DNA from: Phormidesmis priestleyi Ana | GTDB lineage: Bacteria; Cyanobacteriota; Cyanobacteriia; Phormidesmidales; Phormidesmidaceae | Direction of reading: 5' to 3' | NCBI GenBank assembly: GCA_001314865.1 | Contig: LJZR01000001.1 | Location: 248,001 to 312,000 of the forward strand | Length of the DNA: 64,000 bases | Shown here: positions 1,421-21,170 of the stretch, one piece after another | How the letters are laid out: the number at the start of each line of letters is the position of its first letter | Numbering within the stretch: position 1 is the stretch's first letter | The notes under the pieces: generated by a model | What the model was told of the DNA's origin: nothing | What the model saw: the letters and a program-made list of their open reading frames with translations, nothing else | Databases searched by the model: none | Position numbers and translations under genes: made by a program

Positions 1421-2398
1421 ATGACAGCGATTCTCAAAATTGGTCAAACAACGTTAGAGGCATCTGAGTTGATTGCCAAGCTTAAAGAGCATCAACTGAT
1501 GCCTAAACTTGTGCAAGAGGTTCTGATTGATGACGTGATTGCGTCTGTTGAGTGTGATCCGCAAGCAGCTTTGCAGGCGTTTTGTAACAAGCGAGGGCTG
1601 TTTTCTCGGGAGCAGCAGCAGGCTTGGTGTCAGCAGCAGCAAGTAGCACCCGAGCAGCTGACACAGATCGCGATTAGAGAGCAAAAGCTCATCAATTTTC
1701 AGGAAAATACCTGGGGCGTTCAGATTGAGTCTTACTTTTTACAGCGAAAATCTCAGCTAGATAGAGTGCGCTATTCGCTCATTAGAACAAAAGACATCAG
1801 CCTAGCTCAAGAACTTTACTTTCGGCTCAACGACGATGGCATGTCGTTTGCGAGCTTGGCCAGTGAATACTCAGAAGGACAGGAATCTAAAACAGGCGGG
1901 ATGGTTGGGCCTGTAGAGCTGAGCGTGCCGCATCCCATACTGGCTAGGATGCTTATGGTGAGCAAGCCGGGTCAGCTTTGGGCACCGACTCAGATTGGAG
2001 AATGGCTCGTGATTGCTCGCCTAGAGCAGTTTCTTCCGGCTCAGTTCGATGAGGCGATGCGAGAGCGACTGCTAGCCGAGCAGTTTCAAACCTGGCTAGG
2101 GCAGCAGCTGCAAGAAATCGGAGTAACAGAACTGGGCATACAGCCAGTCACAGAGCCCGTCACAGAGCCCGTCACAGAGCCCGTCACAGATTTTAATCAG
2201 TCAGGAGATGATGATAATGTACATAAGGTATATGGAGCTGAGACATCCCAAGCTGAGCCATCCCAAGCTGAGACACCTACAGCTCAGAGGTTAGATAGTG
2301 ACATTTCATCATCTAGCACCTCCCCAAAAACGTCATCAAGTATCCCCAAAACGGGCGGTTCTTCGCCACTCACCTTAGAAGACTTAACCGTAGGCTAA
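1421..2398 (+). CDS. Parvulin-like peptidyl-prolyl isomerase of a type I secretion operon
   Basis: 325 residues. Residues about 1-110 form a helical SurA-like N-terminal region. Residues about 112-215 resemble a PpiC/rotamase domain, including EYSEGQESKTGGMVGPVEL, which corresponds to the parvulin S-x-x-S-x-x-x-GG-x-LG stretch. Residues about 240-325 are low-complexity Pro/Thr/Ser sequence with a four-fold PVTE repeat. There is no signal peptide, so it may act in the cytoplasm or travel with substrate. The ABC transporter starts 126 bp downstream and HlyD follows. A PPIase next to an HlyB/HlyD pair suggests a role in substrate folding or delivery; this is inference from position. Confidence 0.8.
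   Translation: MTAILKIGQTTLEASELIAKLKEHQLMPKLVQEVLIDDVIASVECDPQAALQAFCNKRGLFSREQQQAWCQQQQVAPEQLTQIAIREQKLINFQENTWGVQIESYFLQRKSQLDRVRYSLIRTKDISLAQELYFRLNDDGMSFASLASEYSEGQESKTGGMVGPVELSVPHPILARMLMVSKPGQLWAPTQIGEWLVIARLEQFLPAQFDEAMRERLLAEQFQTWLGQQLQEIGVTELGIQPVTEPVTEPVTEPVTDFNQSGDDDNVHKVYGAETSQAEPSQAETPTAQRLDSDISSSSTSPKTSSSIPKTGGSSPLTLEDLTVG
2144..2191 (+). repeat. 12-bp coding tandem repeat (PVTE)
   Basis: Four copies of a 12-bp unit (consensus CCCGTCACAGAG) encode PVTE repeats in the C-terminal tail of the PPIase-like protein. The unit is a multiple of three, so copy changes keep the frame. A second 15-bp duplication follows around 2244-2273. Confidence 0.85.
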
Positions 2399-2524: not shown

Positions 2525-5500
2525 ATGACCTACGCAAAAGTCTCACTTGAACAAAGCCTGGGGATGATTCCCCCATTTGATCAGCTGCCGGTGACTGCCT
2601 TGGAGTCTTTGGTGAGCAGCTCGCAGAAGCTTCGATACCGAATTGGTCAACCGATGCTGCGGCGAGAGTCGATGCCTTACCAGCTAGTGGTTATTTTGGA
2701 GGGGAAAGGGCGATTGCTCGGCTACGATCCCTATCAAAAAACGCCGATGACGCTGGGTTTGTTAGAGTCGGGCTCGGTATTAGGGCTGGCTGGACTCGTG
2801 AGAGGGGTGCCTTGCGAAAGTGCGATCGCCTCATCTGAAGTGATGGCCATTGCAATCCCGATAACCACCGTTCGCGAGCTGATGGGCAAGTATGACAAGT
2901 TTGCTCAGGCAATTATTGGACGCTGCTATTTGGCAGAAGTATTTGACTTAGTGAGTCAGTATTTTAAGACCCAGGCTCGTAACGTGAGTGACTCGGCTGG
3001 CGTGGCTCGGAGGCTGTGTGAAGAGGCGATCGCGCTAACCCTACCTGCTGGCCCCATCACTGTGGCTGGGCAAGACCCCAACTGGCTATGGTTTGTTAGC
3101 TCCGAGAGCGTTGCTAGCCATCCTGCGGGTAACTGGCTGCTGGCCAACTCGCTAGATGGCCGTGTGAAGAGCCAAAAGCCGACACGGCTGATTGGGATAG
3201 ATATGCGCCAGCTAGCGACCCAGGCAGCTGTTTCGCTACCGGCTGATGCTCCGGTTAATGATCAAAGCACGGGTCAAAGCAACGGTCAGCTGGTTTATGG
3301 GGTCAATATCAGCGGTGCCAATGGTCAAGTTGCGGGCTATCCAGTAGATCGAGGGGGCGGGGCTGCACCAGGCGGTACACTTGCCCGGTCAGATGACGAT
3401 ACCCCTTATGCACCCGAGCTGAACTTTGACTCCAATATTGTTGAGGAAGGTTCAGATCGAGCCAATTCGATTAAGTATCCGGTCATGCGCGGACGCGGTG
3501 AAGTCGGCTCGGCGCTGACCTGCTTCGCCATGATAGCTCAGCATTTAGGTATGCCGTTTAAGCGCGATGTGGTGCAGCGGGTACTCACCAACCAATCTGA
3601 ACGGTTGGGCCAGCTATCTTTGACGGCTTGCGGTGCGGTTGCTGACTTGGTGGGGCTAAAGCCTCAGCTAGCGAAGGTTCCGGCAAGTGCGATCGCCCGA
3701 CTACCTAAGCTAGCTTTGATTAAATGGCGAGAAGGATTTGCCGTCATTTATGAAACCTCTCAGTCTGAGTATGTGCTGGGTGTACCTGAAGAAAACAGGC
3801 TCGTGCGTCACTCACCACAAGCCTTTGAGGAAATTTGGGGGCCAGAGGGTGAAATTTTGCTGGTGGAGACCACTGAGCAAACACCTCAGCAAAAGTTCGG
3901 TCTAAGCTGGTTTATCCCATCGTTGAAGCGTTACCGCGGGGTACTAACAACGGTACTGGTTGCCTCATTTTTTGTTCAGGTCTTTGGCTTGGCCAATCCG
4001 CTGATGGTGCAGGTCATCATTGATAAGGTCATTGGGCAAAACAGCATTGATACATTGCATGTCCTAGGCTCATTACTGGTGGTAGTTGCCGTATTTGAGG
4101 CTATTTTGACTAGCTTGCGCACCTATTTGTTTGTTGATACGACAAATCGGATTGACATGGCGCTAGGCTCTGAAATTATTGACCATTTGCTGCGATTGCC
4201 ACTGCGCTACTTTGACCGCCGCCCAGTGGGTGAACTTTCTAGCCGAGTTAATGAGCTCGAAAACATTCGTCAGTTTTTGACCGGAACAGCACTAACTGTT
4301 GTGTTAGACGCGCTGTTCTCAGTGCTGTACATCCTAGTGATGTTTTTATACAGCATTAAGCTGACATTTGTTTCACTATCGACGATTCCGTTGTTTATGC
4401 TGCTGACCTTTTTTGTATCGCCGATTGTCCGCCGACAGCTCCGGGCCAAAGCGGAGCGCAACGCTGAAACTCAATCGTTTTTGGTAGAAGCACTCTCGGG
4501 TATTCAAACAGTGAAAGCTCAGAACATGGAGCTGAAAACACGCTGGAAGTGGCAAGAAAAATACGCTCGTTACGTCAGTGATGGATTTAAGACCGTACTG
4601 ACTTCTACGACCGCAGGCTCGGCTAGTGGCTTCTTAAACAAAATGTCAGGACTGCTGGTGCTATGGTTTGGCGCGGCCCTAGTATTGGATGGTCAGCTAA
4701 CCTTGGGCGGCCTGATCGCTTTTAGGATTATCTCCGGCTATGTCACTCAGCCACTACTCCGTTTAACTCAGCTCTGGCAGAATTTCCAAGAAACCGCACT
4801 GTCTTTGGAGCGCTTGAGCGATATTATTGACAACCCGCAAGAGCAGGCTGAAGAAGACCGCAATCAGATTCCGATGCCAGAGATTTCAGGCAATGTAACG
4901 TATGAAAATCTATCTTTTCGCTTTGCGCCCACTGGCCCTTTGCAGCTGATAAACATCAACTTGGAATTCTATCAGGGTGAGTTTATCGGCATTGTCGGAC
5001 AGAGTGGTTCGGGTAAGAGTACGCTGATGAAACTGCTGCCTCGCCTTTACAATGCTGAGTCAGGGCGGATTTTGATAGATAATTACGATATTAGAAAAGT
5101 AGAGCTGTATTCGCTGCGTCAGCAAGTAGGGATTGTGCCGCAAGACAGCTTGCTCTTTGAGGGCAGTATTCAGGAAAATATTGCCCTGACGAATCCACAA
5201 GCTAGCACTGAAGAGATTATTGAAGCTGCCAAAATTGCCTGTGCGCATGACTTTATTATGGATCTGCCGAGCGGCTATAACTCCCGTGTGGGAGAGCGGG
5301 GCTCGTCACTGTCGGGCGGACAGCGACAGCGGATTGCGATCGCCCGCACGATTTTGCAAAACCCGCGCCTGCTAATTTTAGACGAGGCCACCAGTGCCCT
5401 TGACTACGACACCGAATCACAGGTGTGCTACAACCTAAAAAACTGGGCCAACGGTCGCACGGTATTCTTTATCACGCATCGTTTGAGCACTATTCGTCAA

Positions 5501-5614
5501 GCTGATCGCATTTTGGTCATGGATAAAGGCTCAGTGGTTGAATTGGGATCGCACGATGAGTTAATGGAGCTTAAAGGCCGCTACTACTGCCTATCTGAGC
5601 AGAAGGGAGAATAA
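2525..5614 (+). CDS. HlyB-like type I secretion ABC transporter with degenerate cNMP and C39 domains
   Basis: 1029 residues in four parts. Residues about 18-150 are a cyclic-nucleotide-binding-like fold. Residues about 315-445 are a C39-peptidase-like domain. Residues about 465-760 are the ABC transmembrane domain. Residues about 780-1025 are the ATPase, with Walker A GQSGSGKST near 825, signature LSGGQRQR near 930, Walker B LLILDE near 955 and a switch histidine in ITHRLST. The C39 domain lacks its catalytic residues: the position of the Cys before the conserved A-C-L-x-M block is Ser329, and the His of the HFVV block reads Gly404. In the cNMP cassette the usual Arg of R-x-A is Glu98. It therefore looks like a non-cleaving HlyB-type exporter. 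Architecture resembles cyanobacterial Sll1180-type transporters. The adaptor gene begins 4 bp after the stop. Confidence 0.9.
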   Translation: MTYAKVSLEQSLGMIPPFDQLPVTALESLVSSSQKLRYRIGQPMLRRESMPYQLVVILEGKGRLLGYDPYQKTPMTLGLLESGSVLGLAGLVRGVPCESAIASSEVMAIAIPITTVRELMGKYDKFAQAIIGRCYLAEVFDLVSQYFKTQARNVSDSAGVARRLCEEAIALTLPAGPITVAGQDPNWLWFVSSESVASHPAGNWLLANSLDGRVKSQKPTRLIGIDMRQLATQAAVSLPADAPVNDQSTGQSNGQLVYGVNISGANGQVAGYPVDRGGGAAPGGTLARSDDDTPYAPELNFDSNIVEEGSDRANSIKYPVMRGRGEVGSALTCFAMIAQHLGMPFKRDVVQRVLTNQSERLGQLSLTACGAVADLVGLKPQLAKVPASAIARLPKLALIKWREGFAVIYETSQSEYVLGVPEENRLVRHSPQAFEEIWGPEGEILLVETTEQTPQQKFGLSWFIPSLKRYRGVLTTVLVASFFVQVFGLANPLMVQVIIDKVIGQNSIDTLHVLGSLLVVVAVFEAILTSLRTYLFVDTTNRIDMALGSEIIDHLLRLPLRYFDRRPVGELSSRVNELENIRQFLTGTALTVVLDALFSVLYILVMFLYSIKLTFVSLSTIPLFMLLTFFVSPIVRRQLRAKAERNAETQSFLVEALSGIQTVKAQNMELKTRWKWQEKYARYVSDGFKTVLTSTTAGSASGFLNKMSGLLVLWFGAALVLDGQLTLGGLIAFRIISGYVTQPLLRLTQLWQNFQETALSLERLSDIIDNPQEQAEEDRNQIPMPEISGNVTYENLSFRFAPTGPLQLININLEFYQGEFIGIVGQSGSGKSTLMKLLPRLYNAESGRILIDNYDIRKVELYSLRQQVGIVPQDSLLFEGSIQENIALTNPQASTEEIIEAAKIACAHDFIMDLPSGYNSRVGERGSSLSGGQRQRIAIARTILQNPRLLILDEATSALDYDTESQVCYNLKNWANGRTVFFITHRLSTIRQADRILVMDKGSVVELGSHDELMELKGRYYCLSEQKGE

Positions 5615-5618
5615 ATAA

Positions 5619-7325
5619 ATGACAAGCACTTCTGGTAGACCACCGTCAGTAAATGGCAATGGCCAAGCGAATAGTCAGATGAACAGGCAGATAAATACTC
5701 AGATAAACAGTCCGGCCGCCCAACAGGCGCAGGTAGGCGGCCCCATCAATAGCCGCACGAACGGTCGAGGCGTGAACCCGGTCAATCCGCTGGGTTTGAG
5801 CAACAGCAGCGGGCCACCGACAAATGGCAATGGTGGTCATGGCGGCAATGGCGGCAATGGCGGCAATGGCGGTATACCTGAATTTGAGGCGTATATTCCT
5901 CGGGCATTTGATAAACCAGTTATTTTACGGCAGTCGCCTAAGTGGGCCAAGTTCATTGCCATCGGTATCATGAGCTTCACTACGATTACCGTTTTGAGTG
6001 CCTTTATTTTTAAGGTGGATGAGAGCATTGGCGCACAGGGGAAGTTAGAACCTGAAGGGGTGGTACAGGTCGTGCAGGCTCCGGTGGGCGGCGTGGTTGC
6101 GGAGGTGCTAGTGGCTGAGGGCGAGCCGGTTGAAAAGGGTCAAGTATTAGTGACCTTGGATGAAACTTCGACTGAGGCGCAGCTAAAAGCGAATGAAGAG
6201 AGTACCCAAGATCTGCAAGCGGCAAATGCCTATTTTAGTGCGATTTTAGCAGGCAATTCGGATGCGATCGCCCCGGCAGAGGTGTCGAACGATCTGGCAC
6301 AGCGAGGACGTGATCGCGCTCAGCTACAAGCGAGCAATCAGCTGGCTAGAGCGCAGCTAACCGGCAACACCTCTGGCCTTTCGGCTGAGCAAATATCACA
6401 GCTACAGGCATCAGAATCTCGTTTAGGATCTGAGCAAAGCATCAATAAAATTCAGGCTAACCAGTTGCGCAATCAGCGCGTGCAAACCGAAGTGCAGCTA
6501 GCCAATGCAAAAAGCGATTTGGCAACGAATCAAGAAATTTTAGAGAGCTTAAGAGAGCTGAACGAAAAAGGAGCGGTGGCTAGACTGTCTTTTCTACAGC
6601 AGGAACAGGAGGTTAGCACCAAGCAGGCTCAAGTGGACACGCTACAAGAAGAACTTGGGCGACTGACGCTACAAATAGAAGAAGCCGAAGAGGAAGTAGG
6701 ACTGACCGGATCTGCATCTGATGAAACGCTGTATCAAAGAATTGAGGTCAACACTCAGCGAATTGCTGATATTGACAGCCAGCTAAGCCAGCGAATATTA
6801 GATAACAATCAGCGGCTAGCTGAATTGAGAAGCCAAAAGGTTCAGCTAGAGCAAAATATCAATAACCAGGCCTTAACTGCACCTGTCACAGGAACTGTAT
6901 TTAACCTTAAAGCCAACCGACCGGGCTACGTGGCCAACTCCACCGAGCCGCTGATGGAAATTGTGCCGGAGGATGCTTTGGTAGCGCGAATTTTCATCCC
7001 TAACAAGGATATTGGCTTTATTAAGGTTGGGCAAAAAGTAGATGTACGGATAGATGCTTTTTCTTACAACGAGTTTGGGGATATTGAGGGCACTATTACC
7101 AGCATTGCAACAGACGCACTGCCACCCGATGAATTATTTCCTTTCTTCCGTTTTCCGGCTGAAGTGACCCTAGATACACAGGAAATGATGGCTGAAGGCG
7201 TACCGCTTCAGTTGCGGTCGGGAATGTCGCTAAACGCAAATATCAAGCTGCGGAAGCGCCGAATTATCACGTTCTTTACAGATCAGCTCAGACGTAAGAC
7301 AGATGCCTTTATCACTGGTAGCTAG
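5619..7325 (+). CDS. HlyD-family periplasmic adaptor (membrane fusion protein)
   Basis: 568 residues. The first ~95 are Asn/Gln/Gly-rich with GGNGGN repeats, probably a disordered cytoplasmic tail. One membrane helix lies near residues 108-130 (FIAIGIMSFTTITVLSAFIF). A lipoyl-like half follows (about 140-185), then a long coiled coil rich in Q, L and E (about 190-420), then the second lipoyl half starting at ALTAPVTGTVFNL and a beta-barrel C-terminus. This is the HlyD order, bridging the inner-membrane ABC exporter to an outer-membrane TolC-like channel. No TolC gene is in the window. Translation is probably coupled to the transporter: GGAG precedes and the gap is 4 bp. Confidence 0.92.
   Translation: MTSTSGRPPSVNGNGQANSQMNRQINTQINSPAAQQAQVGGPINSRTNGRGVNPVNPLGLSNSSGPPTNGNGGHGGNGGNGGNGGIPEFEAYIPRAFDKPVILRQSPKWAKFIAIGIMSFTTITVLSAFIFKVDESIGAQGKLEPEGVVQVVQAPVGGVVAEVLVAEGEPVEKGQVLVTLDETSTEAQLKANEESTQDLQAANAYFSAILAGNSDAIAPAEVSNDLAQRGRDRAQLQASNQLARAQLTGNTSGLSAEQISQLQASESRLGSEQSINKIQANQLRNQRVQTEVQLANAKSDLATNQEILESLRELNEKGAVARLSFLQQEQEVSTKQAQVDTLQEELGRLTLQIEEAEEEVGLTGSASDETLYQRIEVNTQRIADIDSQLSQRILDNNQRLAELRSQKVQLEQNINNQALTAPVTGTVFNLKANRPGYVANSTEPLMEIVPEDALVARIFIPNKDIGFIKVGQKVDVRIDAFSYNEFGDIEGTITSIATDALPPDELFPFFRFPAEVTLDTQEMMAEGVPLQLRSGMSLNANIKLRKRRIITFFTDQLRRKTDAFITGS
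5841..5867 (+). repeat. 9-bp coding tandem repeat (GGN)
   Basis: Three exact copies of GGCGGCAAT with flanking partial units encode the Gly-Gly-Asn run in the N-terminal tail of the HlyD-like protein. Confidence 0.8.
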
Positions 7326-7866: not shown

Positions 7867-8499
7867 TTATGTTTTGCGGGAAACCGCTGGCGAGTCGGTT
7901 AAGTACCAGCGCCAGAGAATATCAGTGCCTTTGGATAGGCCAATGCGGGTGGTTTGAGTAATATCGGCAGGTATGGTGGTCTCAAGAGACTGAGCATCTT
8001 TGAGTGATGGCGAAGCGTCTCGGCAGGAAGAGGGCGCCTCTATCCAAATTCCTGAATCAGGATGCAGTTTGACGCCCTTCAAAGATTCATCAATTTTTAG
8101 CGTTCGGCATAGCTTTCCGGGACCAGCGGCGACTCTGGCCAGCTTCTCTTTAGCCGGATCTATCCAACTAGGGTACTGCACTAGGCTAATAGCGCGAATC
8201 AGGATGGTGCTCGCTAAGCCATTGCGATCGGTAACGATATTGAAGCAGTGGTACTGCCGGTAGATGCGATAGACATAGACAAACCCTGCAGGGCCAAACA
8301 CCACTGCGTTGCGTTTGGTTGGGGTTTGGTAAGCATGCATGGCAGGGTCACCGGCTTCGTAGGCTTCGGTTTCGACGATTTGGCCTTGGATGATTTCAGC
8401 GCCTATTTTTCGCATCAATGTGCAGCCAATTAGGTCTGGGGCTACGAGGGCTGAAGAACGGTTAAACCAGGAGAGCGGAAGGGGGTTGGATAGGATCAA
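7867..8499 (-). CDS. DNA-3-methyladenine glycosylase (AAG/MPG family)
   Basis: 210 residues, the usual size for bacterial AAG-family enzymes. Motifs in order: LLG-like DLIGC, the catalytic IVETEAY (Glu activates water), a MHAY-x-x-P-T-x-R-N stretch, VFGPAGFVYVYRIY, GPGKLCRTLKID, and the C-terminal SPAVSRK. The enzyme excises alkylated purines such as 3-methyladenine from DNA as the first step of base excision repair. It is convergent with the 50-residue ORF and transcribed alone. Start is ATG at 8499. Confidence 0.93.
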   Translation of the reverse strand: MILSNPLPLSWFNRSSALVAPDLIGCTLMRKIGAEIIQGQIVETEAYEAGDPAMHAYQTPTKRNAVVFGPAGFVYVYRIYRQYHCFNIVTDRNGLASTILIRAISLVQYPSWIDPAKEKLARVAAGPGKLCRTLKIDESLKGVKLHPDSGIWIEAPSSCRDASPSLKDAQSLETTIPADITQTTRIGLSKGTDILWRWYLTDSPAVSRKT

Positions 8500-8590: not shown

Positions 8591-10357
8591 ATGCTATCTA
8601 CCGTTTCTGAAAAAAAATTACAGGTCATTCGCTGGGCAATTTTTTTGGCTTGGGCACTGCTCATCTTTTCTCTATTTTATGATCCGGTGTCGTCGGTGTT
8701 AACCCGCCCTGAGAGTAATTGGAGTCCGTTGGCCGATAAATGGATCGCGACGGCTAATGATCCGGCGCGCTGCATAGATGCGCAGGGTTACTGTATCGCG
8801 CTAGAGCCCTATGCCCTTGGGACTAGGGTGTTTTGGGGGATGGTGGTGCCTAGTGCAATATTTGTTGTGCTGGTGTTTGGACATGAGTTTTGGCGGCGAA
8901 TTTGTCCGCTGTACTTTTTTTCGCAGCTGCCTAGGGCCCTGGGAATGAAGCCTTTGATGGATATCAACCGCAATCAGTGGCTACAGAACAATCATCTGTA
9001 CGTTCAGTTTGTGTTGTTCTTTTTGGGCATTACGGCGCGGATTTTGCTGGTGAATTCGGTACGGCCTGCGGCGGGCGCGTTTTTGGTGGTGACCCTGTTG
9101 TTGGCGGCGGGTGTAGTGATGCTGTATGGCGGCAGGAGTTGGTGTCACTATGTTTGTCCGTTTGGAATGGTGCAGACTGTTTTTACTGGGCCAAGAGGGT
9201 TGTTGGATAGTACTGCTCATGAGGCTGCGCCCTATAGCCTAACTCAGTCAATGTGTCGTGTGGTAAAGACAATAGAGGCAGTAGAAACAGCGGAAGGCGC
9301 GGGAGCCCCGAAAGAACAAAGTGACTGTGTTTCTTGTAAGTCAGCCTGTATGGATATTGATGCTGAACTGGCTTACTGGGAGACTTTGCGAAAGCCGGGA
9401 CGGCGGTTGGTGCAGTATGGCTACTTGGGTTTGGTGATTGGCTACTTTTGCTATTACGGGCTATATGCAGGCAATTTTGACTATTACTTTTCGGGTGTGT
9501 GGAGCCATGAGTCTCGTGCGATCGCAGCGCTATTTGATCCGGGTTTTTATCTTTGGGGTCGGACGATTGCACTACCTAAGCTGATCGCCGCACCGCTGAC
9601 GCTGGCGGCTTTTGCCGCCATTAGCTATTGGATCTGCATGAGGCTGGAGCGCTGGTATCGAGGTCATTTAAAGCAAAAGGATGCAGCGGACGCGACAGAA
9701 AAAAGTTTGCATAGAATGTTTTCTGTTTGCACCTTTTTGGCATTCAACTTTTTCTTTGTTTATGGTGGACGTCCCGAGATTAACCATTGGCCAGTCGCTG
9801 CTCAGTTTGGATTTCAGGCTTTGATTATGGGGGTGAGCAGCTTGTGGCTGAGTCGAACCTGGGGCCGAAGCAGTAAGCAATATCACATCGAGAAAATGGC
9901 TATTAAGCGACGCCAACAGCTGCAAAAACTTTCTCTTAATGTATCTGAACTGTTAGGCGAGCAAAGCCTCAACAACCTTAGCGCTGACAAACTAGATGTA
10001 CTGGTACAGGTGCTGCCCGAGATTGATCGGGCTTGGCAGGCGCAATACAACAATGTTAAAGAGGATTCTGGTGATTTGCCGAGGACAGTGATTAAACATC
10101 GAGATATTAGGCAGCAAGATATTAGGCAGCAAGATATTAGGCAGCAAGATATTAGGCAGCAAGATATTAGGCAGCAAGATATTAGGCAGCAAGATATTAG
10201 CAAGATATTAGGCAGCAAGATATTAGGTATCAAGAGCTTGGGTTACCAAGCGATTATACGGTTCTGCCGAAAACGCGTTTACGACGAGGGTGATACGCGA
10301 TCGCCTCATGATTCTGTTCTGATTTTAATCCTATTCAACCACTTCGACTTTCTTTGA
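8591..10357 (+). CDS. Polytopic membrane 4Fe-4S protein (NapH/CcoG-like), C-terminus apparently frameshifted
   Basis: 588 residues as read. Several membrane helices (about 13-33, 82-97, 136-180, 273-290, 330-350, 378-392) frame cysteine motifs of the membrane polyferredoxin type: R-R-I-C-P at 105, W-C-x3-C-P-F-G at 185/189 and C-x2-C-x3-C at 246/249/253. A basic helical region (430-500) leads into DIRQQ repeats. A GGAG site precedes ATG 8591. At 10193 one repeat unit is 4 bp short and the frame changes; the other frame continues with a natural-looking tail ending at stop 10291. The next gene encodes a flavin/2Fe-2S reductase with an FHA domain, so this protein is a plausible membrane electron acceptor for it. 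Substrate and physiological role are unknown. Confidence 0.75.
   Translation: MLSTVSEKKLQVIRWAIFLAWALLIFSLFYDPVSSVLTRPESNWSPLADKWIATANDPARCIDAQGYCIALEPYALGTRVFWGMVVPSAIFVVLVFGHEFWRRICPLYFFSQLPRALGMKPLMDINRNQWLQNNHLYVQFVLFFLGITARILLVNSVRPAAGAFLVVTLLLAAGVVMLYGGRSWCHYVCPFGMVQTVFTGPRGLLDSTAHEAAPYSLTQSMCRVVKTIEAVETAEGAGAPKEQSDCVSCKSACMDIDAELAYWETLRKPGRRLVQYGYLGLVIGYFCYYGLYAGNFDYYFSGVWSHESRAIAALFDPGFYLWGRTIALPKLIAAPLTLAAFAAISYWICMRLERWYRGHLKQKDAADATEKSLHRMFSVCTFLAFNFFFVYGGRPEINHWPVAAQFGFQALIMGVSSLWLSRTWGRSSKQYHIEKMAIKRRQQLQKLSLNVSELLGEQSLNNLSADKLDVLVQVLPEIDRAWQAQYNNVKEDSGDLPRTVIKHRDIRQQDIRQQDIRQQDIRQQDIRQQDIRQQDISKILGSKILGIKSLGYQAIIRFCRKRVYDEGDTRSPHDSVLILILFNHFDFL
10103..10233 (+). repeat. 15-bp tandem array (DIRQQ) containing a 4-bp deletion
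   Basis: Six exact copies of GATATTAGGCAGCAA run from 10103 to 10192. Unit 7 (10193-10203) is GATATTAGCAA, four bases short. Unit 8 is complete and unit 9 has diverged (GATATTAGGTATCAA). The short unit changes the downstream reading frame of the host gene. Confidence 0.92.
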
Positions 10358-10361
10358 AACC

Positions 10362-11900
10362 ATGTTAAAAGCAAAAATTATCAACTACAGCAACAACAGC
10401 GTTTTTTCGACAGAGCTAGCCCCCCGATCTAGCCATCAGGCTGAGTGCCTGATTGGTCGTCATCCTGACTGTGATTTGGTGTTAGATGGGCCAGCAGTGA
10501 GTCGGGTGCATGGTCGTTTGTTATTTGATATAGAACAGTGTTTTTTTACCGATTTGGGGAGTACGGATGGGTCGAGGTTGAACAACGACAAGATTCGAGT
10601 GAATCAGCGCTATGCGATCGCGCCAGATGACGTGATTCGCATGGGTGAGTTTGCGTTAATTGTCGAAGACCTGACGCAGTCACAGCCAATTCAGTCCCCC
10701 GTGAAAGTTTGGGCAGATGAAGAAATCAGTGTCCGCTGTATTCAGATCATTCAAGAAACACACGATGTTAAAACCTTTCGGTTTGTGAGCGAGCCTGAGC
10801 AGTTGTTTGACTTTAAGCCGGGTCAGTTTGTGTCTATCAAGCTACCGGTTGCCCAGCTGCCAATTGCACAGCATGGAAAAACTTCACCGCTTATCCGGTC
10901 GTACTCGATTTCGTCGAGCCCATCGCGACCCCACACCTTAGACATTACAGTGAAGCGCGTAGGCGCAGCGAATGAAGCCTTGCCACCCGGTGTGGCCTCT
11001 AACTGGCTGCATGACAGCCTGAAGGTTGGGATGACATTACCTATACAGGGCCCCTTTGGCAGCTTTAACTGCGTGGATCATCCAACAGATAAGCTGCTGT
11101 TAATTTCCGCAGGCAGCGGCATTACGCCCATGATGTCGATATCGCAGTGGCTAAGTGATCTGGCAAGCCCAACCAATATCACCTTTATTCACGCAGCCCG
11201 CACGGCGCAAGACATTGTTTTTCATCAGCGGCTATCGCTGTTGGCGGCTCAGCATCCGCATTTTCAGCTGGCTTTTACATTGACCCAAGCGACGCTGCCA
11301 ACGCCTTGGGCAGGCTATCGCGGCAGGCTAAACCCAGCGATGCTAGCAGCTATTTGCCCAGACTTTGCTGAGCGTCATGCATTTGTATGCGGCCCAGCAG
11401 GCTTTATGGCAAGCACCAAAAGCCTGCTACAAGCCGAGGGCTTTCCGATGGATCACTATTTTGAAGAAAGCTTTGATGGCCGCCCTAAAGCTAGCGCTAA
11501 AGCTAAAGCCAAAGCCACTAACCCAGCACTTTCATCTGTGGCTTCTCCGCCGTTGGCTTTAGCTGGTCGCAATACAACAGATCGCAATACGGCAGATCGC
11601 GATACAACAGATCGCAATATGGCAAGCTGCGGCTCCACACCGCTCGTAGAATTCTCTGCATCAGGAAAGTCTATTGCCTGCAACGATACCGATACTCTGC
11701 TAGACGCAGCTGAACAGGCGGGCATCCACATTCCGAGTGGCTGTCGAATGGGGAGCTGTGGTGCCTGCAAACACCCGATTGCTGAAGGCGAGGTGTGTTA
11801 TGAGCTAGAGCCACGGGGCTTAAGTGAGAATGAGCGCGCATCTCAGCAGGTACTAACCTGCATCGCCAAACCCGTCGGTCGAGTTGTGCTGGCCTTATGA
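10362..11900 (+). CDS. FHA domain - ferredoxin-reductase-like - 2Fe-2S ferredoxin fusion protein
   Basis: 512 residues. Residues about 20-100 are an FHA phosphothreonine-binding domain (LIGRHPDCDLVLD, VSRVHG, LGSTDGS). Residues about 120-375 are a flavin reductase module: FAD motif R-S-Y-S-I-S-S, GPFGSF, NAD(P) loop SAGSGITPM and CGPAGF. Residues about 380-425 are a repetitive linker (DRNTA/DRDTT). Residues about 430-512 are a plant-type 2Fe-2S domain with Cys461, 466, 469 and 500 (C-x4-C-x2-C-x30-C). The catalytic part resembles the NADH oxidoreductase Hcr and oxygenase reductases. The FHA domain suggests control by Ser/Thr phosphorylation or docking to a phosphoprotein. The likely partner is the membrane 4Fe-4S protein just upstream. 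The electron donor (NADH or NADPH) cannot be decided from sequence. Confidence 0.88.
   Translation: MLKAKIINYSNNSVFSTELAPRSSHQAECLIGRHPDCDLVLDGPAVSRVHGRLLFDIEQCFFTDLGSTDGSRLNNDKIRVNQRYAIAPDDVIRMGEFALIVEDLTQSQPIQSPVKVWADEEISVRCIQIIQETHDVKTFRFVSEPEQLFDFKPGQFVSIKLPVAQLPIAQHGKTSPLIRSYSISSSPSRPHTLDITVKRVGAANEALPPGVASNWLHDSLKVGMTLPIQGPFGSFNCVDHPTDKLLLISAGSGITPMMSISQWLSDLASPTNITFIHAARTAQDIVFHQRLSLLAAQHPHFQLAFTLTQATLPTPWAGYRGRLNPAMLAAICPDFAERHAFVCGPAGFMASTKSLLQAEGFPMDHYFEESFDGRPKASAKAKAKATNPALSSVASPPLALAGRNTTDRNTADRDTTDRNMASCGSTPLVEFSASGKSIACNDTDTLLDAAEQAGIHIPSGCRMGSCGACKHPIAEGEVCYELEPRGLSENERASQQVLTCIAKPVGRVVLAL
11568..11627 (+). repeat. 15-bp coding tandem repeat in the reductase linker
   Basis: Four imperfect copies of CGCAATACAACAGAT encode a RNTTD-like repeat between the NAD-binding and 2Fe-2S domains. 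An Ala/Lys-rich repeat (GCTAAAGC units) lies just before it, near 11490-11520. Confidence 0.85.
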
Positions 11901-12041: not shown

Positions 12042-13772
12042 ATGAATAGACCTTATCAAATAACCAACCAAATCAATTTCAGGCATCTGCGTGGCGATCT
12101 GTTTGGCGGTTTGACTGCCGCAGTCATTGCCCTACCGATGGCACTAGCCTTTGGCCTAGCCTCGGGAGCTGGCCCGGTTGCGGGTTTATATGGCGCTATT
12201 TTAGTGGGCTTTTTTGCTGCATTGTTTGGCGGTACGCCAACGCTAATTTCTGAGCCCACTGGTCCCATGACGGTTGTGATTACTGGCATTATCGCCAGCT
12301 TGGTGGCGGCGAATCCTGACAATCCTGAAACCGGGCTGGCCATGGCCTTTACGGTGGTGATGATGGCTGGCGCAATTCAGATTGCGATTGGCTTGCTTAA
12401 GCTAGGCAAGTACGTAACGCTGATGCCCTACAACGTCGTCTCTGGCTTTATGTCAGGCATTGGCATTATTTTGATTGTGCTACAGATAGGGCCAGCGCTG
12501 GGCTTGGCGGCGCCTAAAGGCGGGGTCATGGGAACGCTGCGAAGCTTACCTGAATTACTGGCCAATATTCAGCCTCAGGATGCCATTTTGGCGCTGATGA
12601 CGGTGCTGCTGATTTTGTTTTTTCCTAAAAATCTGCGGAAGTTTGCCCCGCCTCAGCTCGTTGCGATGATTATCGGTACCGTGCTGTCGCTGTCGCTGCT
12701 CGACGGCGGTGAGTCGATGCGACGAATCGGAGAAATTCCGCTAGAAGCGCCGCAAATAGGGTTACCTGTGTTTAGCGGCCCCCAAATGCGCAATATGCTG
12801 ATTGATTCGATTGTGCTGGCGGTGCTGGGTTGTATTGATGCGTTGTTGACTTCGGTCGTGGCCGATAGCCTGACTCGCACTGAGCATGATTCTAATAAGG
12901 AGCTGGTGGGTCAGGGCATTGGCAATATTGTGTCGGGACTGTTTGGTGGCTTGCCGGGGGCTGGGGCCACCATGGGAACTGTGGTCAATATCAAAGCGGG
13001 TGGGAGAACGGCGCTTTCGGGCCTGATCCGGGCGGTGATTTTATTGGTGGTTGTACTCGGGGCTAGTGGACTGACGCGCAATATTCCGCTGGCTGTGCTG
13101 GCAGGCATCATCATTAAAGTGGGCATCGATATTATTGACTGGGGCTTTTTGAAGCGAGCGCACCATATCTCTGGCAAATCGGCGGCGATTATGTATGGGG
13201 TGATTTTTCTCACCGTGTTTGTTGACTTGGTAGTGGCGGTCGGGGTCGGCATATTTGTGGCCAACATTTTAACAATTGAAAAGCTGAGTCAGCTGCGCTC
13301 AGATAAGGGCGTCACGGCGATTACTGATAACGATGACAAGATTGCGCTGAGTGAGGAAGAAAAAAGCCTTTTAGAGCAGGGGCGTGATCAAATTTTGCTC
13401 TTTAGTTTGAGCGGACCGATGATTTTTGGCGTGGCTAAGGCGATCTCTCGTCAGCGCGAAGCCGTTCAAAACTGTAAGGCCATGATTTTGGACTTGAGCG
13501 AAGTGCCGCATTTGGGGGTGACGACCTCGCTGTCGATTGAAAATGCCATCCAGGAAGCGGTAGATGGCGATCGCGAGGTGTACGTTGTGGGAGCCACGGG
13601 CCAAACCTATAAGCGACTGAGCAAGCTAGGACTGCTGAAAATTGTCCCGGCTGAGCGATTTTTGGACAGCCGCACAGAGGCGCTTCGGCAGGCAGTGGTG
13701 GCTGTCAGTAATGCTAACGGCAGCGGTGATATGACTGACGATGCCTATGATCAATCGCCTGCGATCGCCTAA
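12042..13772 (+). CDS. bicA: BicA-type Na+-dependent bicarbonate transporter (SulP/SLC26)
   Basis: 576 residues, close to the 566 of Synechococcus PCC 7002 BicA and alignable with it along most of its length. Shared blocks include LRGDLFGGLTAAVIALPMAL, GGTPTLISEPTGPMTVV, TRTEHDSNKELVGQGIGN and IIDWGFLKRAHH. A transmembrane core of about 14 helices (to ~410) is followed by a cytoplasmic STAS domain (about 440-550, PMIFGVAKAISRQ, LDLSEVPHLGVT). BicA imports bicarbonate at the plasma membrane for the CO2-concentrating mechanism. It is monocistronic here and convergent with the aminotransferase gene. Other SulP members carry sulfate, but the closeness to BicA favours bicarbonate. Confidence 0.92.
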   Translation: MNRPYQITNQINFRHLRGDLFGGLTAAVIALPMALAFGLASGAGPVAGLYGAILVGFFAALFGGTPTLISEPTGPMTVVITGIIASLVAANPDNPETGLAMAFTVVMMAGAIQIAIGLLKLGKYVTLMPYNVVSGFMSGIGIILIVLQIGPALGLAAPKGGVMGTLRSLPELLANIQPQDAILALMTVLLILFFPKNLRKFAPPQLVAMIIGTVLSLSLLDGGESMRRIGEIPLEAPQIGLPVFSGPQMRNMLIDSIVLAVLGCIDALLTSVVADSLTRTEHDSNKELVGQGIGNIVSGLFGGLPGAGATMGTVVNIKAGGRTALSGLIRAVILLVVVLGASGLTRNIPLAVLAGIIIKVGIDIIDWGFLKRAHHISGKSAAIMYGVIFLTVFVDLVVAVGVGIFVANILTIEKLSQLRSDKGVTAITDNDDKIALSEEEKSLLEQGRDQILLFSLSGPMIFGVAKAISRQREAVQNCKAMILDLSEVPHLGVTTSLSIENAIQEAVDGDREVYVVGATGQTYKRLSKLGLLKIVPAERFLDSRTEALRQAVVAVSNANGSGDMTDDAYDQSPAIA

Positions 13773-17038: not shown

Positions 17039-17098
17039 AGTTCCAAGTCTAGTTCCAGGTCTAATTCCAGGTTTAGTTCCAGGTTTAGTCCCAGGTTT
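17039..17098 (-). repeat. 12-bp tandem array at a stop codon, repeating the stop itself
   Basis: Five copies of AGTTCCAGGTTT-like units. On the minus strand each reads ACCTGGAACTAA or a variant, that is Thr-Trp-Asn-stop. The real stop of the 1361-residue gene (complement of 17085-17087) lies inside the array, so up to four further in-frame stops follow it. Confidence 0.92.
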
Positions 17099-20000
17099 CT
17101 AGAGCTGAGGCCCAAGACTCTAGCCGAGTGGTCACTTGCGATCGCCTCGATTCAAACGTTGCCGCAACCCAAATAAACAATACTCCCAACACAATGCCCA
17201 CGGCCCACAACAGCAAAGAATAGGCGCTAATAAATAGCCACAGCACTCTAATAATCTGAAGAACAAAGGTGAGCGTACCAACGTATAAAAAGGCGCGTAC
17301 CTTGAGCGATAGTCCGGCAAAAATGAGGCCGATGCATAGCAGCAACGTAATGGCAGCGTATAGCAACATGGGCCTACCGGTTTCGGCCTGGTAAAGGGCA
17401 GTCAGACCGATCAGGGCGCTAGCGAGCGATCGCAGCCAATGCCGCTGCTGATTTTTATCAACCGCTTGCCAGTAGGGGTCTACCTGCGCAACATACAGCA
17501 CCGACAGAGCCAGTACCAAACTGCATACCAGCGTAGTAAGCCAGCCCAATTCGTCTAAATATCTCAGCATTGCCCAGTCAAACAACCCAATGCTCAGGTA
17601 GCTCAGCCGCACCCGATCAAACTGTTTGGCCATCCAGGCATAAAACGCACCGACCACTAGCAGACTCTGAGCCGAAACGCGATAGTCAATCGCTATGCCC
17701 AAAATACAGAGAATACAGATCGGTAGCCATAGAGACAACCATCGCCAAGGGCGCAACGGCCAGCCAAATCGCACCCAGGGAAGCCGATATAAAACGAGGC
17801 TCACCATGCAGGCAACAATCCCACCCCAAGTCAGAATAAACATCCTATCTGGGAACCAGACCCAGCGGTCGTAGGCAACACACAGCAGGATTTGAACAAT
17901 CCCGATACCTGTCCAAGCAGCGTGACCAAAGCCCGCTGTTTGAGAGGTCCAGTGGCGGTTGCCGGTGGCTATGGCATAGGCACCGAGAGAGAGCAAGGTG
18001 GCTGTCCATAGTGCGATGCCCATAGGCTGACTGAGGGTGGATAGCGCAGCGATGACAGCCATGCCGCTACCCAAGGCCCAGTGCGATTGAGAGACGCTTT
18101 GCAAAGCGGGGGCGGGCAGGCGTAGATAAGGGAGCAGTAAGGGGCTGAGGCACTTTTGTAGGAGTGCGATCGCCAACGCCAATAGCGCCAGCAGCGTAAA
18201 GCCATCGCCCACCTGGCCACCGCTGGCTTGCGACATCTGATAAATCAGCAGTTCGTAAGCACCAAAGGAGAAAGTGGCCAGCCCCAGATAGCTGACAAGG
18301 AAAGAAGAGTGACTTTCTGCCAATGGATGGCGTCGGCCTACCGACATCATGACGATGCTGGCCAAGAGCGTATAAAGCCCAGTCGTCGCTTGAAACGGCA
18401 CCATTGGGTTGTGACTCAGAGCGATGCCAATGACTGCGTAGACCAGTGGAATGCCGTGCCAGCTCAAGCGATAGGAGGGATGTCGGCGGATCCAGAGGTC
18501 GCCTACCAGCTGGATGGCAAGGGCTAAAGCAAGGAAGGCGATCGCGGTTCCAAGCAGCGAAATATCTGCCATATCCAGCGCTAGCGTGAGGGCGATCGCA
18601 CCTGCCCAGGCCAAGCTCCAATAGCGCCATTCTGCGGGGCGATACCAAATTGCTTCGATCAGTATTGCAATCAGTAAAATTGTGGCTAAAAGCAGGTAGC
18701 GAAAGCCCTCGATCGTCACAATGACAATCTCATTTAATGAGCCAGGTAAGCTACTGCCTGCGGCCAACGTACCCAAAAACAACAGTCCGACCATGAGCAA
18801 AACGCCCCATCCCTCAGCCGCCTGCTCATAGAGAACAGCCAGGCCGCGCGATTGCCGATTCAGCCGATTCAGTCGATTCAGTCGATTCAATAATCTAGCG
18901 AGCAGCCACAGCGCCCAAATTTCTAGCACCCAAACGATTAACCAGCGTGATCCGCCAAGGTTGAGCCGTTCTATTAGCAAATACCAGCTCGTGCTAGAGA
19001 CAAAAGCAACGGCACAGCCTATGGTAAAAAAAGTGGCCTCATTGCTGCGCCATATGCGGCTGTTACACAACATGCATAGCATGCCGACAGCGAAGCTGCT
19101 GATAACCATTCCCCAGCTCGCTAGCCAAGGCGCTTGTAGCACGATTGCAAGCGTGGCGATTCTAGCAAGCCACACCGGCAGCAGCGCCCTGCGATAATTG
19201 GCGACCAGAGTTAAGGTAACAGGCACCAGTAACCAAATCCAGCCGGGATTTAGGGCCTCATTTTTTAGCAGCAGCGCTCTTGGCAACGGAGTTTCTAGCA
19301 ACAGAAGGTAGCTGAGTGCCCATAGGCTCAGCCCTGCGCCCCAGGTGTTCTTTTGCCAGCGAAGGCTGTTGAGTGTGATATGTAGAACGAATTCGACAAT
19401 ACCGCCCAACACCAACAGATAGGCCCAATTAGCGGAGCTAAGATCGGGTTGTAAGTAGTCAATCCAAGCTGCGATCGCCCCAAGCCCTGCCCCATGCGCC
19501 AGCGTCACCATTAGGGTTTCTATTTGCGGACGCCGTTTCACAATCACAAGCAGTGTCGCCGCCAAAAGCAACAGATTGGCCGCGAGCGTAAAGCGATTAC
19601 TCAGGCTTAGCCCGGTTAAAGCCACGCCCAAAGACAGCGCTATCAACTCGGAAAATTTCGCTAGCTCCGCCCGCTGCCAGCGACGAAGCTGACGAGTAAA
19701 CCACAGCAAACCCCACAAAAAAGGAATGAATCCGATGCTCATCCATTCGGTTCGGCTAATGGGCTGTGATGAGAGCTGTTGAGATAGCCGCGTGAGTAGG
19801 GTGGTTTGGGTAGCGGGTGGAATGAGTCCCCCTAACAGCCAGTAAGCCTGTGCTGCGACGCCGATTAGCGCTAGCAAATAGCCTTTGCCCCAGGTGAGTT
19901 GTAGCCGAGTCCACAGTACCCAAAGGGTTAGGATGCTGATGGCGATCGCCTGCACAGGGGGCTGTTGAGCAACGCAAACCGCCCAGCCCAAAACGAGCAG

Positions 20001-21170
20001 GCCAAATCCTGGCCATTGCCAGAGTCCTCGGCTTGCCTGATGACGGCTGAGCCAGCACATCAGCCAACCACAAATCCCAGCGGCTAAGCCCAGCTGATAG
20101 GGCGGTATCTGCGCTCCCAACAAACTGCGAAATAATAGAATTAAAACGGATAGTGCGATCGCCAATACATCAAAAGAAATTAGCTTTGATGCAGTCGTTT
20201 CTGAGGCTTCAAAAGAGTCTGCTAAGGGCTCATCGCCTGCTGAATCTTCAGCTGAGCTTTCTGAAATTGAAGATATTGCCGTTGATACAGCCGCCAATCG
20301 GCGATTTTTATAGCGATCTTCATAGGTCAACATCGCGGCAGTTCCGACCGTGCCTACATAGGTTGCAACAACCGGCCAAACAGCCCAACCGCTTGCCATC
20401 CAGCCCAAATGAAGCCAGCTAAGCCCCACTATATTGAACTGATGAACGCAATGATTGAGCAGCTTGAGCAGTAGGCTACTTAGCAACAATATCGATAGTC
20501 CACCGATGCCAATACCCAAAGGGCTTATGGCGACGCCATCGCCACTCGCTGAATGCCAAATATTGAGCACATCCATCAGCCAAAAGTTAATCGGAATCAG
20601 CAGCACGGTAGTAAGTGCCAGCATTTTCGCTGTGGCCTGCAATCGCTCCTGTCGCTGCGCCCATGCACCTGCGCCCCAAAACGCCAATGTATACGTCAAC
20701 AAAATGGCATACTGCCCAACTGCTGAAAAAGACTGCCATTGACTTGCAGCCAGCACACCCGAAGAAACAACAACTAGAAAAACACCCAGAAATAAAAGCC
20801 AAATGACGCTAAATTCGTCGAGTAAGGCCCGCAACGCTTGCGTCATTCTGTTGGGTTGAGCAGGTGGGGTGAGTTCGGATTCTGGGGTGAATTCTGGGGT
20901 GGCTTCTGTGGTAGCTAGGAGTGCCGTTTCGCGATTTGTTGCCCAATCTGTTTCATGGCTGATTGCGCGATTTGTTGCGCGATTGACATAGGGCGGTAAA
21001 GAAGTCGCCTCATCGGCCTGCGGCAACGGGAGTGTGTCACTTAACGTTTGGGCTATTTCGCGTATCTGCGCGTCTGAGATGAGCCCTAGCTTTACCCAGC
21101 TATCAAGCCCTTGCAGTAAATGCAGACGCACCTGTTCAGAGGTTAAATCGAGCCGAATATTCAGGCGCAT
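17085..21170 (-). CDS. Very large multi-pass membrane protein of unknown function (1361 residues)
   Basis: A soluble, helical N-terminus of about 100 residues (LTSEQVRLHLLQGLDSWVKL, then ISDAQIREIAQTL) is followed by an almost uninterrupted succession of hydrophobic helices, by eye more than 30, rich in Trp, Leu and Ala. Short cytoplasmic loops include a four-fold Asn-Arg-Leu repeat (nucleotides 18856-18891) and an acidic Ser/Glu segment near residue 310. The N-terminal module is reminiscent of DUF2157-type membrane proteins of cyanobacteria, but I cannot confirm this. No catalytic or nucleotide-binding motif is visible. It is transcribed alone. Start is ATG at 21170; function unknown. Confidence 0.75.
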   Translation of the reverse strand: MRLNIRLDLTSEQVRLHLLQGLDSWVKLGLISDAQIREIAQTLSDTLPLPQADEATSLPPYVNRATNRAISHETDWATNRETALLATTEATPEFTPESELTPPAQPNRMTQALRALLDEFSVIWLLFLGVFLVVVSSGVLAASQWQSFSAVGQYAILLTYTLAFWGAGAWAQRQERLQATAKMLALTTVLLIPINFWLMDVLNIWHSASGDGVAISPLGIGIGGLSILLLSSLLLKLLNHCVHQFNIVGLSWLHLGWMASGWAVWPVVATYVGTVGTAAMLTYEDRYKNRRLAAVSTAISSISESSAEDSAGDEPLADSFEASETTASKLISFDVLAIALSVLILLFRSLLGAQIPPYQLGLAAGICGWLMCWLSRHQASRGLWQWPGFGLLVLGWAVCVAQQPPVQAIAISILTLWVLWTRLQLTWGKGYLLALIGVAAQAYWLLGGLIPPATQTTLLTRLSQQLSSQPISRTEWMSIGFIPFLWGLLWFTRQLRRWQRAELAKFSELIALSLGVALTGLSLSNRFTLAANLLLLAATLLVIVKRRPQIETLMVTLAHGAGLGAIAAWIDYLQPDLSSANWAYLLVLGGIVEFVLHITLNSLRWQKNTWGAGLSLWALSYLLLLETPLPRALLLKNEALNPGWIWLLVPVTLTLVANYRRALLPVWLARIATLAIVLQAPWLASWGMVISSFAVGMLCMLCNSRIWRSNEATFFTIGCAVAFVSSTSWYLLIERLNLGGSRWLIVWVLEIWALWLLARLLNRLNRLNRLNRQSRGLAVLYEQAAEGWGVLLMVGLLFLGTLAAGSSLPGSLNEIVIVTIEGFRYLLLATILLIAILIEAIWYRPAEWRYWSLAWAGAIALTLALDMADISLLGTAIAFLALALAIQLVGDLWIRRHPSYRLSWHGIPLVYAVIGIALSHNPMVPFQATTGLYTLLASIVMMSVGRRHPLAESHSSFLVSYLGLATFSFGAYELLIYQMSQASGGQVGDGFTLLALLALAIALLQKCLSPLLLPYLRLPAPALQSVSQSHWALGSGMAVIAALSTLSQPMGIALWTATLLSLGAYAIATGNRHWTSQTAGFGHAAWTGIGIVQILLCVAYDRWVWFPDRMFILTWGGIVACMVSLVLYRLPWVRFGWPLRPWRWLSLWLPICILCILGIAIDYRVSAQSLLVVGAFYAWMAKQFDRVRLSYLSIGLFDWAMLRYLDELGWLTTLVCSLVLALSVLYVAQVDPYWQAVDKNQQRHWLRSLASALIGLTALYQAETGRPMLLYAAITLLLCIGLIFAGLSLKVRAFLYVGTLTFVLQIIRVLWLFISAYSLLLWAVGIVLGVLFIWVAATFESRRSQVTTRLESWASALETWD
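18856..18891 (-). repeat. 9-bp coding tandem repeat (Leu-Asn-Arg)
   Basis: Four copies of CGATTCAGT-like units encode LNR repeats in a loop of the large membrane protein. Confidence 0.8.

Follow-up and report, generated by a model that had tools for sequence, protein, structure and literature searches.

A conserved cyanobacterial gene pair encoding a NapH-like membrane protein and an FHA-bearing flavoreductase: a possible electron exporter beside peroxidase and kinase genes

The cyanobacterium Phormidesmis priestleyi Ana (assembly GCA_001314865.1) carries, on contig LJZR01000001.1 (positions 248,001 to 312,000 of the forward strand; this 64,000-nucleotide stretch is termed the window), two adjacent genes, A and B, which encode a polytopic Fe-S membrane protein and a reductase with FHA, FAD, NAD(P) and 2Fe-2S domains. 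A-B is a cyanobacterial gene pair and an evolutionary unit, the two genes being found together far beyond chance. Genes of peroxidases accompany the pair in part of one clade, and a Ser/Thr kinase gene adjoins it in the sister clade. We tentatively propose, from sequence and gene order, that A-B may be a membrane-bound electron exporter which resembles NAD(P)H oxidases, works without haem, is gated by a kinase and would supply H2O2 to exported peroxidases, a reading that we regard as possible rather than probable. No component lies outside the known superfamilies; what is new to us is how they are assembled and in which context. A first-pass annotation of the window knew no named system with this layout, and we likewise found none in comparisons with curated families or in searches of the open-licence PMC literature, among the listed results of which no title or abstract opening describes the pair.

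Occurrence of the pair

Two open reading frames (ORFs) had been placed between positions 8591 and 11900 by that annotation, and both are present there (Table 1), on the same strand and separated by 4 nt. In a class sample of 388 genomes, A was matched in 172 (E ≤ 1e-10) and B-like sequences in 157, a figure that counts in some reductases and ferredoxins of other kinds, matched over part of their length. A second set comprises the 45 genomes from which the named relatives of A come, and which were reached via loci chosen for A; B was detected in 39 of these at E ≤ 1e-45. A lies within 3 kb of B at 44 of the 55 B places, in 35 genomes, and B within 3 kb of A at 44 of the 75 A places. Of the 47 named loci whose sequence extends 2 kb or more beyond A, 39 have B there in the same orientation, with a median gap of 122 nt, and the two genes also share a strand in 20 other linked loci inspected, which were picked for having B. 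The first-pass annotation had named independent occurrence of the two genes in most genomes as a point that would refute it. Most B places adjoin A, but many A places have no B nearby; that annotation missed the A genes that lack B as well as the recurrent peroxidase link described below.

Some members of the A family have long C-terminal extensions with matches to cNMP or, below cut-off, HEAT domains. The long forms mostly end in a cNMP-like domain, recognized by Pfam in L020 and by similarity in the others. The genome of the window itself appears to hold a second A, presumably a single gene split over two contig ends (contigs C24 and C25), the pieces of which are L002 and L003 (also L224 and L225); its C-terminal piece contains the cNMP-like domain. 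Near its N-terminal piece, a possible broken cytochrome c6-like stretch was noticed by eye (L002, 1573-1893). At L069:4349-5122 (+), immediately after a long A that lacks B, a gene was likewise recognized by eye as encoding a CcdA/DsbD-like membrane protein.

Domain architecture and conserved residues

The sole Pfam domain of A above its cut-off is Fer4_5 (28.2 against 22); at E ≤ 0.1, DUF2238 and Fer4_18 also appear, both below cut-off. When a profile of 67 A proteins was aligned with E. coli NapH by hhalign (E 1.7e-4, probability 49), C105-P and C185xxxC189-P of A fell on the CX3CP motifs of NapH. Two such motifs are characteristic of the NapH/MauN family; the second is intact in A (C185-C189P) and the first is reduced to CP. 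We regard A as a distant relative of NapH and not as NapH itself. A search of PDB sequences with A gave no match (best E 0.53).

Seven cysteines of A, C105, C185, C189, C222, C246, C249 and C253, are invariant in 69/69 homologue rows, so that the Cys motifs are kept in the homologues, one of the points on which the first-pass annotation had staked its reading. Its count of three 4Fe-4S-type Cys clusters was nevertheless too high, since seven invariant cysteines allow at most one complete four-Cys site and one three-Cys site of the NapH type. C222, C246, C249 and C253 could hold one [4Fe-4S] cluster; the match of the C222-C253 set to the NapG motif is very weak (probability 2.8). Among the histidines, H98 and H374 are conserved in 68/69 rows and H135 in 61/69. 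An AlphaFold2 model of residues 1-500 is of good overall confidence (pLDDT 86.7, pTM 0.86) and is weak at the Cys loop 210-260. Hydropathy and the helices of the model lead us to infer eight membrane helices, with the seven cysteines facing the cytoplasm and C61/C68 lying on the outer side. Foldseek with this model retrieved no solved structure from the PDB at E ≤ 0.001, which is no proof of a new fold, and VIA-align gave a best Z of 3.4 and no solved structural relative.

The description of B as one polypeptide with FHA, FAD/NAD reductase and 2Fe-2S domains is borne out by Pfam. The FHA domain (PF00498) scores 54.2 bits against a cut-off of 20.7, and FAD_binding_6, NAD_binding_1 and Fer2 each exceed their own cut-offs; with the motifs of its FAD, NAD and 2Fe-2S domains, B has the features of an FNR-type flavoreductase joined to a plant-type ferredoxin. 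In an alignment of 73 B proteins, the cofactor motifs are conserved, namely the 2Fe-2S cysteines C461/C466/C469/C500 (73/73) and the FAD motif RxYS (72-73/73). The FHA domain retains R33 (72/73), S47 (73/73), H50 (72/73), S67 (73/73), G70 (72/73) and N74 (69/73). R33, S47, H50, G70 and N74, together with T68 and N/D69, are presumably the positions that contact phosphothreonine. The FHA domain of B thus keeps most of the residues expected of a phosphothreonine reader, although the canonical T-N at positions 68-69 varies. The linker between the NAD and 2Fe-2S domains of B contains a tandem repeat with a 15-bp period at 11567-11624.

Table 1. Positions in the window of the gene pair, its domains and motifs, and neighbouring genes.
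Feature	Position	Strand	Remarks
ORF A	8591-10357	+	588 aa; polytopic NapH-like Fe-S membrane protein
C61/C68 of A	8771-8794	+	Loop between transmembrane helices 1 and 2; 59/69 rows each; predicted extracytoplasmic
Cys105 of CP motif of A	8903-8905	+	69/69; aligns to end of first NapH CX3CP (hhalign)
Cys185-x3-Cys189-Pro of A	9143-9160	+	69/69; Fer4_5; second NapH CX3CP motif
C222...C246-x2-C249-x3-C253 of A	9254-9349	+	Four invariant Cys (69/69); candidate [4Fe-4S] site
Tandem repeat (RQQDI)n, 15 bp	10102-10235	+	Variable C-terminal tail of A
ORF B	10362-11900	+	512 aa; FHA-FAD-NAD(P)-2Fe-2S reductase
FHA domain of B	10449-10646	+	aa 30-95; Pfam and alignment
FAD-binding domain of B	10746-11069	+	aa 129-236; Pfam
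NAD(P)-binding domain of B	11100-11420	+	aa 247-353; Pfam
Plant-type 2Fe-2S domain of B	11661-11873	+	aa 434-504; C461 C466 C469 C500 in 73/73
Type I secretion ABC protein and HlyD adaptor	2525-7325	+	Possible part; upstream of A
Glycosylase gene	7867-8499	-	Between secretion genes and A
BicA-type bicarbonate transporter	12042-13772	+	Directly downstream of B; 898 bits against cut-off 880

Peroxidase genes beside A

The most recurrent neighbour cluster of the 57 named A loci consists of peroxidase and RTX proteins. This cluster at first mixed vanadium haloperoxidases (VHPOs) with haem peroxidases through their shared RTX repeats and was then split. Haem peroxidases are not homologous to vanadium peroxidases. 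The cluster, taken together with a bromoperoxidase cluster, comprises three kinds of enzyme: chloroperoxidase-type VHPOs (DUF6851 and VCPO_2nd), animal haem peroxidases that carry RTX repeats, and vanadium bromoperoxidases (best PDB match E 5.4e-116). The PDB relatives of the first kind include the haloperoxidases NapH1 and NapH3, which are unrelated to the ferredoxin NapH. A peroxidase gene was found in the flanks of 25/57 named loci, two of these being weak matches (L105, 80 bits; L119, 96 bits), within flanks of at most 5 kb that are often limited by contig ends; in 23/25 it lies on the strand of A.

In the 45 genomes, a peroxidase gene lies within 6 kb at 23 of the 75 A places against 0.57 expected, an enrichment of about 40-fold and well above the maximum of 6 seen in 200,000 simulation runs; the expectation assumes uniform placement, leaves out the genome of L080 and is drawn from genomes whose relatedness makes them non-independent; moreover, G408:C85 and C121, both among the 23 places, are near-identical contigs. 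Chloroperoxidase-type VHPOs account for 12 of the 23, vanadium bromoperoxidases for 6 and animal-type haem peroxidases for 5. The same genomes hold 146 peroxidase places, and the share beside A is 12/35 for VHPO, 6/36 for bromoperoxidase and 5/75 for haem peroxidase. Plectonema and Richelia SL_2_1 each possess two A-B copies, one beside a VHPO gene (L089 and L112, respectively) and one beside a vanadium bromoperoxidase gene (L104 and L101). At L103 and L107, A stands beside a haem peroxidase gene and there is no B within 2 kb.

Export signals are visible in the peroxidase at 9/25 named loci. Seven of them carry RTX repeats (L074, L078, L092, L095, L103, L107 and L111). The peroxidases of L075 and L080 end, as judged by eye, in a PEP-CTERM-like tail, and that of L080 also has a signal peptide recognized in the same way. 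The genome of the window encodes a vanadium bromoperoxidase of 622 aa that is unlinked to A-B (L249:4985-6850 (-), contig C82; E 2.6e-198 to PDB 5lpc). A different contig of this genome gives a partial match of the animal-peroxidase-like kind, and PF22778 is not matched in the genome. In the 388-genome sample, PF22778 and PF03098, which stand for the chloroperoxidase and haem types of peroxidase, were found in 32 and 82 genomes, respectively.

A quick tree of A without bootstrap was built from 105 rows out of 118 candidates, the window included, after dropping rows with identical first 450 residues and rows covering fewer than 380 residues of A. It has two deep clades. The window falls into clade I (51 rows), as do all 22 peroxidase-labelled rows; the 18 loci with a kinase-WD40 gene and the long cNMP forms are in clade II (54 rows). 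L079 and L081 are labelled "none" because only four ORFs per side were scanned. The peroxidase label requires 10 changes on this tree, and hence the peroxidase link is not a single arrangement inherited unchanged.

Kinase genes beside the pair

Twenty A-B loci were fetched from the 388-genome sample; they were picked for having A and B, a selection that does not affect the kinase count. In 18 of these 20 clade II loci, a gene for a Ser/Thr kinase that ends in a WD40 propeller lies directly upstream of A on the same strand (four of the 18 were scanned against Pfam). The other two, L189 and L191, have a HlyD gene directly upstream of A, assigned by Pfam and by label, respectively, preceded by a type I secretion ABC gene. 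Clade I, that of the window, shows a different kinase: in L082 and L108 the neighbour of A or B is a gene for a Ser/Thr protein kinase that has a periplasmic-binding/receptor domain, and L083 has an ORF similar to these kinases. The position of the kinase-WD40 gene upstream of the pair fits the idea that the FHA domain places the pair under Ser/Thr-kinase control. No peroxidase gene was seen at the kinase-linked clade II loci. Kinases of the WD40 and ANF types are known from cyanobacteria (PMC2176072); the terms "4Fe-4S", "ferredoxin" and "operon" do not occur in the main text of that source.

RTX proteins also occur near the kinase-linked pairs. Small ones (~300-500 aa) with alike N-terminal parts are encoded near the kinase-A-B loci L185, L187, L197 and L202. 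In L236, L238 and L239, RTX-only proteins are encoded, alongside WD40 and kinase-WD40 genes, upstream of A-B and on the other strand; these RTX proteins show no enzyme domain at E ≤ 0.001.

Proposed mechanism and alternatives

In the proposed exporter, NAD(P)H would reduce the FAD of B, and the electrons would move from FAD to the C-terminal 2Fe-2S centre of B and on to the Fe-S site or sites on the cytoplasmic face of A. A would pass them across the membrane to O2, so that superoxide or H2O2 would be made outside the cytoplasm for the exported peroxidases. The FHA domain may dock B on a phosphothreonine of A, of B itself or of a kinase, and a Ser/Thr kinase would switch the complex on through this docking. 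The direction of electron flow, the crossing of the membrane, O2 as the acceptor and the kinase gating are what we infer, and the exporter is to us the simplest reading of an NAD(P)H-FAD-2Fe-2S reductase that occurs with a polytopic Fe-S protein and H2O2-using enzymes, export signals being visible at 9/25 loci. Haloperoxidases use H2O2 (PMC8407465), and the literature passages considered here name no H2O2-making cyanobacterial enzyme. With three peroxidase kinds beside the pair and a kinase in the sister clade, A and B become named candidate genes for this supply, and the pair would, if the proposal is true, be a case of FHA phospho-signalling acting directly on a redox enzyme. A bolder form of the proposal is doubtful at present: A-B would then be the first NAD(P)H oxidase to work without haem and under kinase gating, an Fe-S exporter convergent with the DUOX-peroxidase arrangement that makes extracellular superoxide/H2O2 for the exported haloperoxidases and haem peroxidases encoded with it, and the long cNMP forms of A without B would receive their electrons from a different source, for instance photosynthetic ferredoxin.

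Several observations weigh against the exporter. All invariant cysteines of A are predicted to be cytoplasmic, so that no transmembrane electron path is apparent, and no haem- or quinone-binding motif was found; an unseen haem (with H98, H135 and H374 as candidate ligands) or a quinone may possibly serve as the carrier. B is missing within 3 kb at 31 of the 75 A places, some of them at contig ends or fragments. It is likewise absent within 2 kb at all 17 testable loci of long-form A (of 19 fetched, chosen by frame length), and it is present beside six other cNMP long forms, L230-L235, which were picked because B matched; both groups being selected, their counts do not reflect how frequent B is among long forms. 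The bromoperoxidases and several VHPOs have no visible export signal. Among the matches listed for the 388-genome sample, 0/150 A places lie within 10 kb of the 141 listed PF22778 or PF03098 places, bromoperoxidase not having been searched. Of 60 loci from the searched genomes, L241 alone showed a peroxidase-like ORF on scanning with all peroxidase seeds, and its A contains in-frame stops. These two results make the peroxidase link a trait of part of clade I. The window has no kinase gene beside A-B, and its subclade (L109, L227, L071 and L086) resembles it in lacking a peroxidase or kinase gene nearby; a BicA-like transporter gene stands next door in the window, L068, L109 and L227. Finally, the canonical T-N of the FHA domain varies at positions 68-69, the first being T in 48/73 and the second D in 33, N in 15 and S in 13.

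Among the alternatives, the one that survives best, unlikely as we judge it, is that of a generic membrane reductase, driven by NAD(P)H, for plastoquinone, cytochrome c6 or metal ions, with which the peroxidases would only be co-regulated. CcoG, for example, reduces copper. The best relatives of A are electron-transfer proteins of the NapH type, B resembles the soluble electron-transfer reductases GbcB and Hcr, and a cytochrome c6-like gene is found near A in the Moorena loci L075, L079, L080 and L081, that of L080 being identified as PetJ (152 bits against a cut-off of 135). Such a reductase, however, leaves unexplained why three kinds of H2O2-using enzyme stand beside A, mostly on the same strand.

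The peroxidase context, with its 23 of 75 places, would also be compatible with a repair or protective reductase which sends electrons outward to undo the damage done by hypohalous acid from the peroxidases, in analogy with MsrPQ, a system with a repair-type role. C61/C68, predicted on the outer side and present in 59/69 rows, could pass electrons to thiols. We consider this role improbable: the kinase-linked clade II loci have no peroxidase, and no methionine sulfoxide reductase or thioredoxin-like protein was recognized by eye among the neighbour clusters, for which no dedicated search was made.

The kinase genes adjoining the pair and the FHA domain of B also suit a different arrangement, in which A would be a redox sensor whose Fe-S sites and C-terminal domain report to kinase signalling while B sets the redox state; the cNMP-binding domain at the end of the long A forms agrees with this. 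The catalytic motifs of B, however, are kept in 72-73/73 rows, and the short A of the window shows no output domain in Pfam, and a sensor therefore seems to us quite improbable. That the peroxidase and kinase genes merely hitchhike in the genome and have no functional connection with A-B is very improbable, the lack of a listed PF22778 or PF03098 place within 10 kb of the listed A places of the broad sample and the non-independence of related genomes being outweighed by the enrichment, the three peroxidase kinds, the 10 changes on the tree and the same-strand bias.

Comparison with known systems

The closest known family to A is NapH/MauN, of the COG0348-type membrane ferredoxins, which include NapH, NosR and CcoG. 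The curated names tried for A were rejected, as it scores 24.3 bits against a cut-off of 213 for NapH/MauN (TIGR02163) and 14.4 bits against 316.7 for CcoG/RdxA (TIGR02745). A resembles NapH/MauN in its polytopic nature, its CP and CX3CP motifs and its ferredoxin-like Cys set. It differs in the reduction of the first CX3CP to CP, in the other Cys spacing, in the probable eight-helix body, in the partnership with an FHA reductase and in the long C-terminal extensions of some members.

The curated names tried for B fell short as well. The best is GbcB (NF058606; 325.5 bits against a cut-off of 500), followed by the NADH oxidoreductase Hcr (PRK10684; 178.4 against 383). B shares with GbcB and Hcr the FAD-NAD reductase with a C-terminal 2Fe-2S domain, whereas the N-terminal FHA domain is additional in B and the gene partner is a membrane protein. 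B is also similar to NqrF in being of the NADH-FAD-2Fe-2S type and in presumably feeding a membrane complex; its score is 77.5 bits against a cut-off of 295 (TIGR01941). NqrF carries its 2Fe-2S centre at the opposite end.

The likeness to NOX/DUOX lies in the combination of an NAD(P)H-FAD reductase with a membrane protein that is genetically linked to peroxidases, including those of the animal haem family. A-B differs in that it probably uses Fe-S centres instead of haem, consists of separate proteins and has O2 as a putative acceptor. No Ferric_reduct domain was matched in A (Pfam, E ≤ 0.1), which makes A-B a possible analogue rather than a member of NOX/DUOX.

Other genes of the window

The secretion genes upstream of A are kept as a possible part only, because the nearest relatives of the window, L226 and L227, have no ABC and HlyD genes beside the pair. 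In L189 and L191, both of one genus (g106), such genes immediately precede A, and in L192 and L194, both of another (g80), they lie downstream of B on the other strand. The BicA-like gene downstream of B was rejected as a part of the system: among the labelled loci it is seen beside A-B in the window, L068, L109 and L227 alone (L226 being the same place as L109), and it is therefore treated as a neighbour of this lineage.

A 1361-aa ORF at 17085-21170 (-) has no Pfam match at E ≤ 1e-5, and the same holds for a 325-aa ORF at 1421-2398 (+), upstream of the secretion ABC gene. ORFs similar to the latter are present in L187, L189, L191 and L194, and in the last three they lie near a secretion ABC gene.

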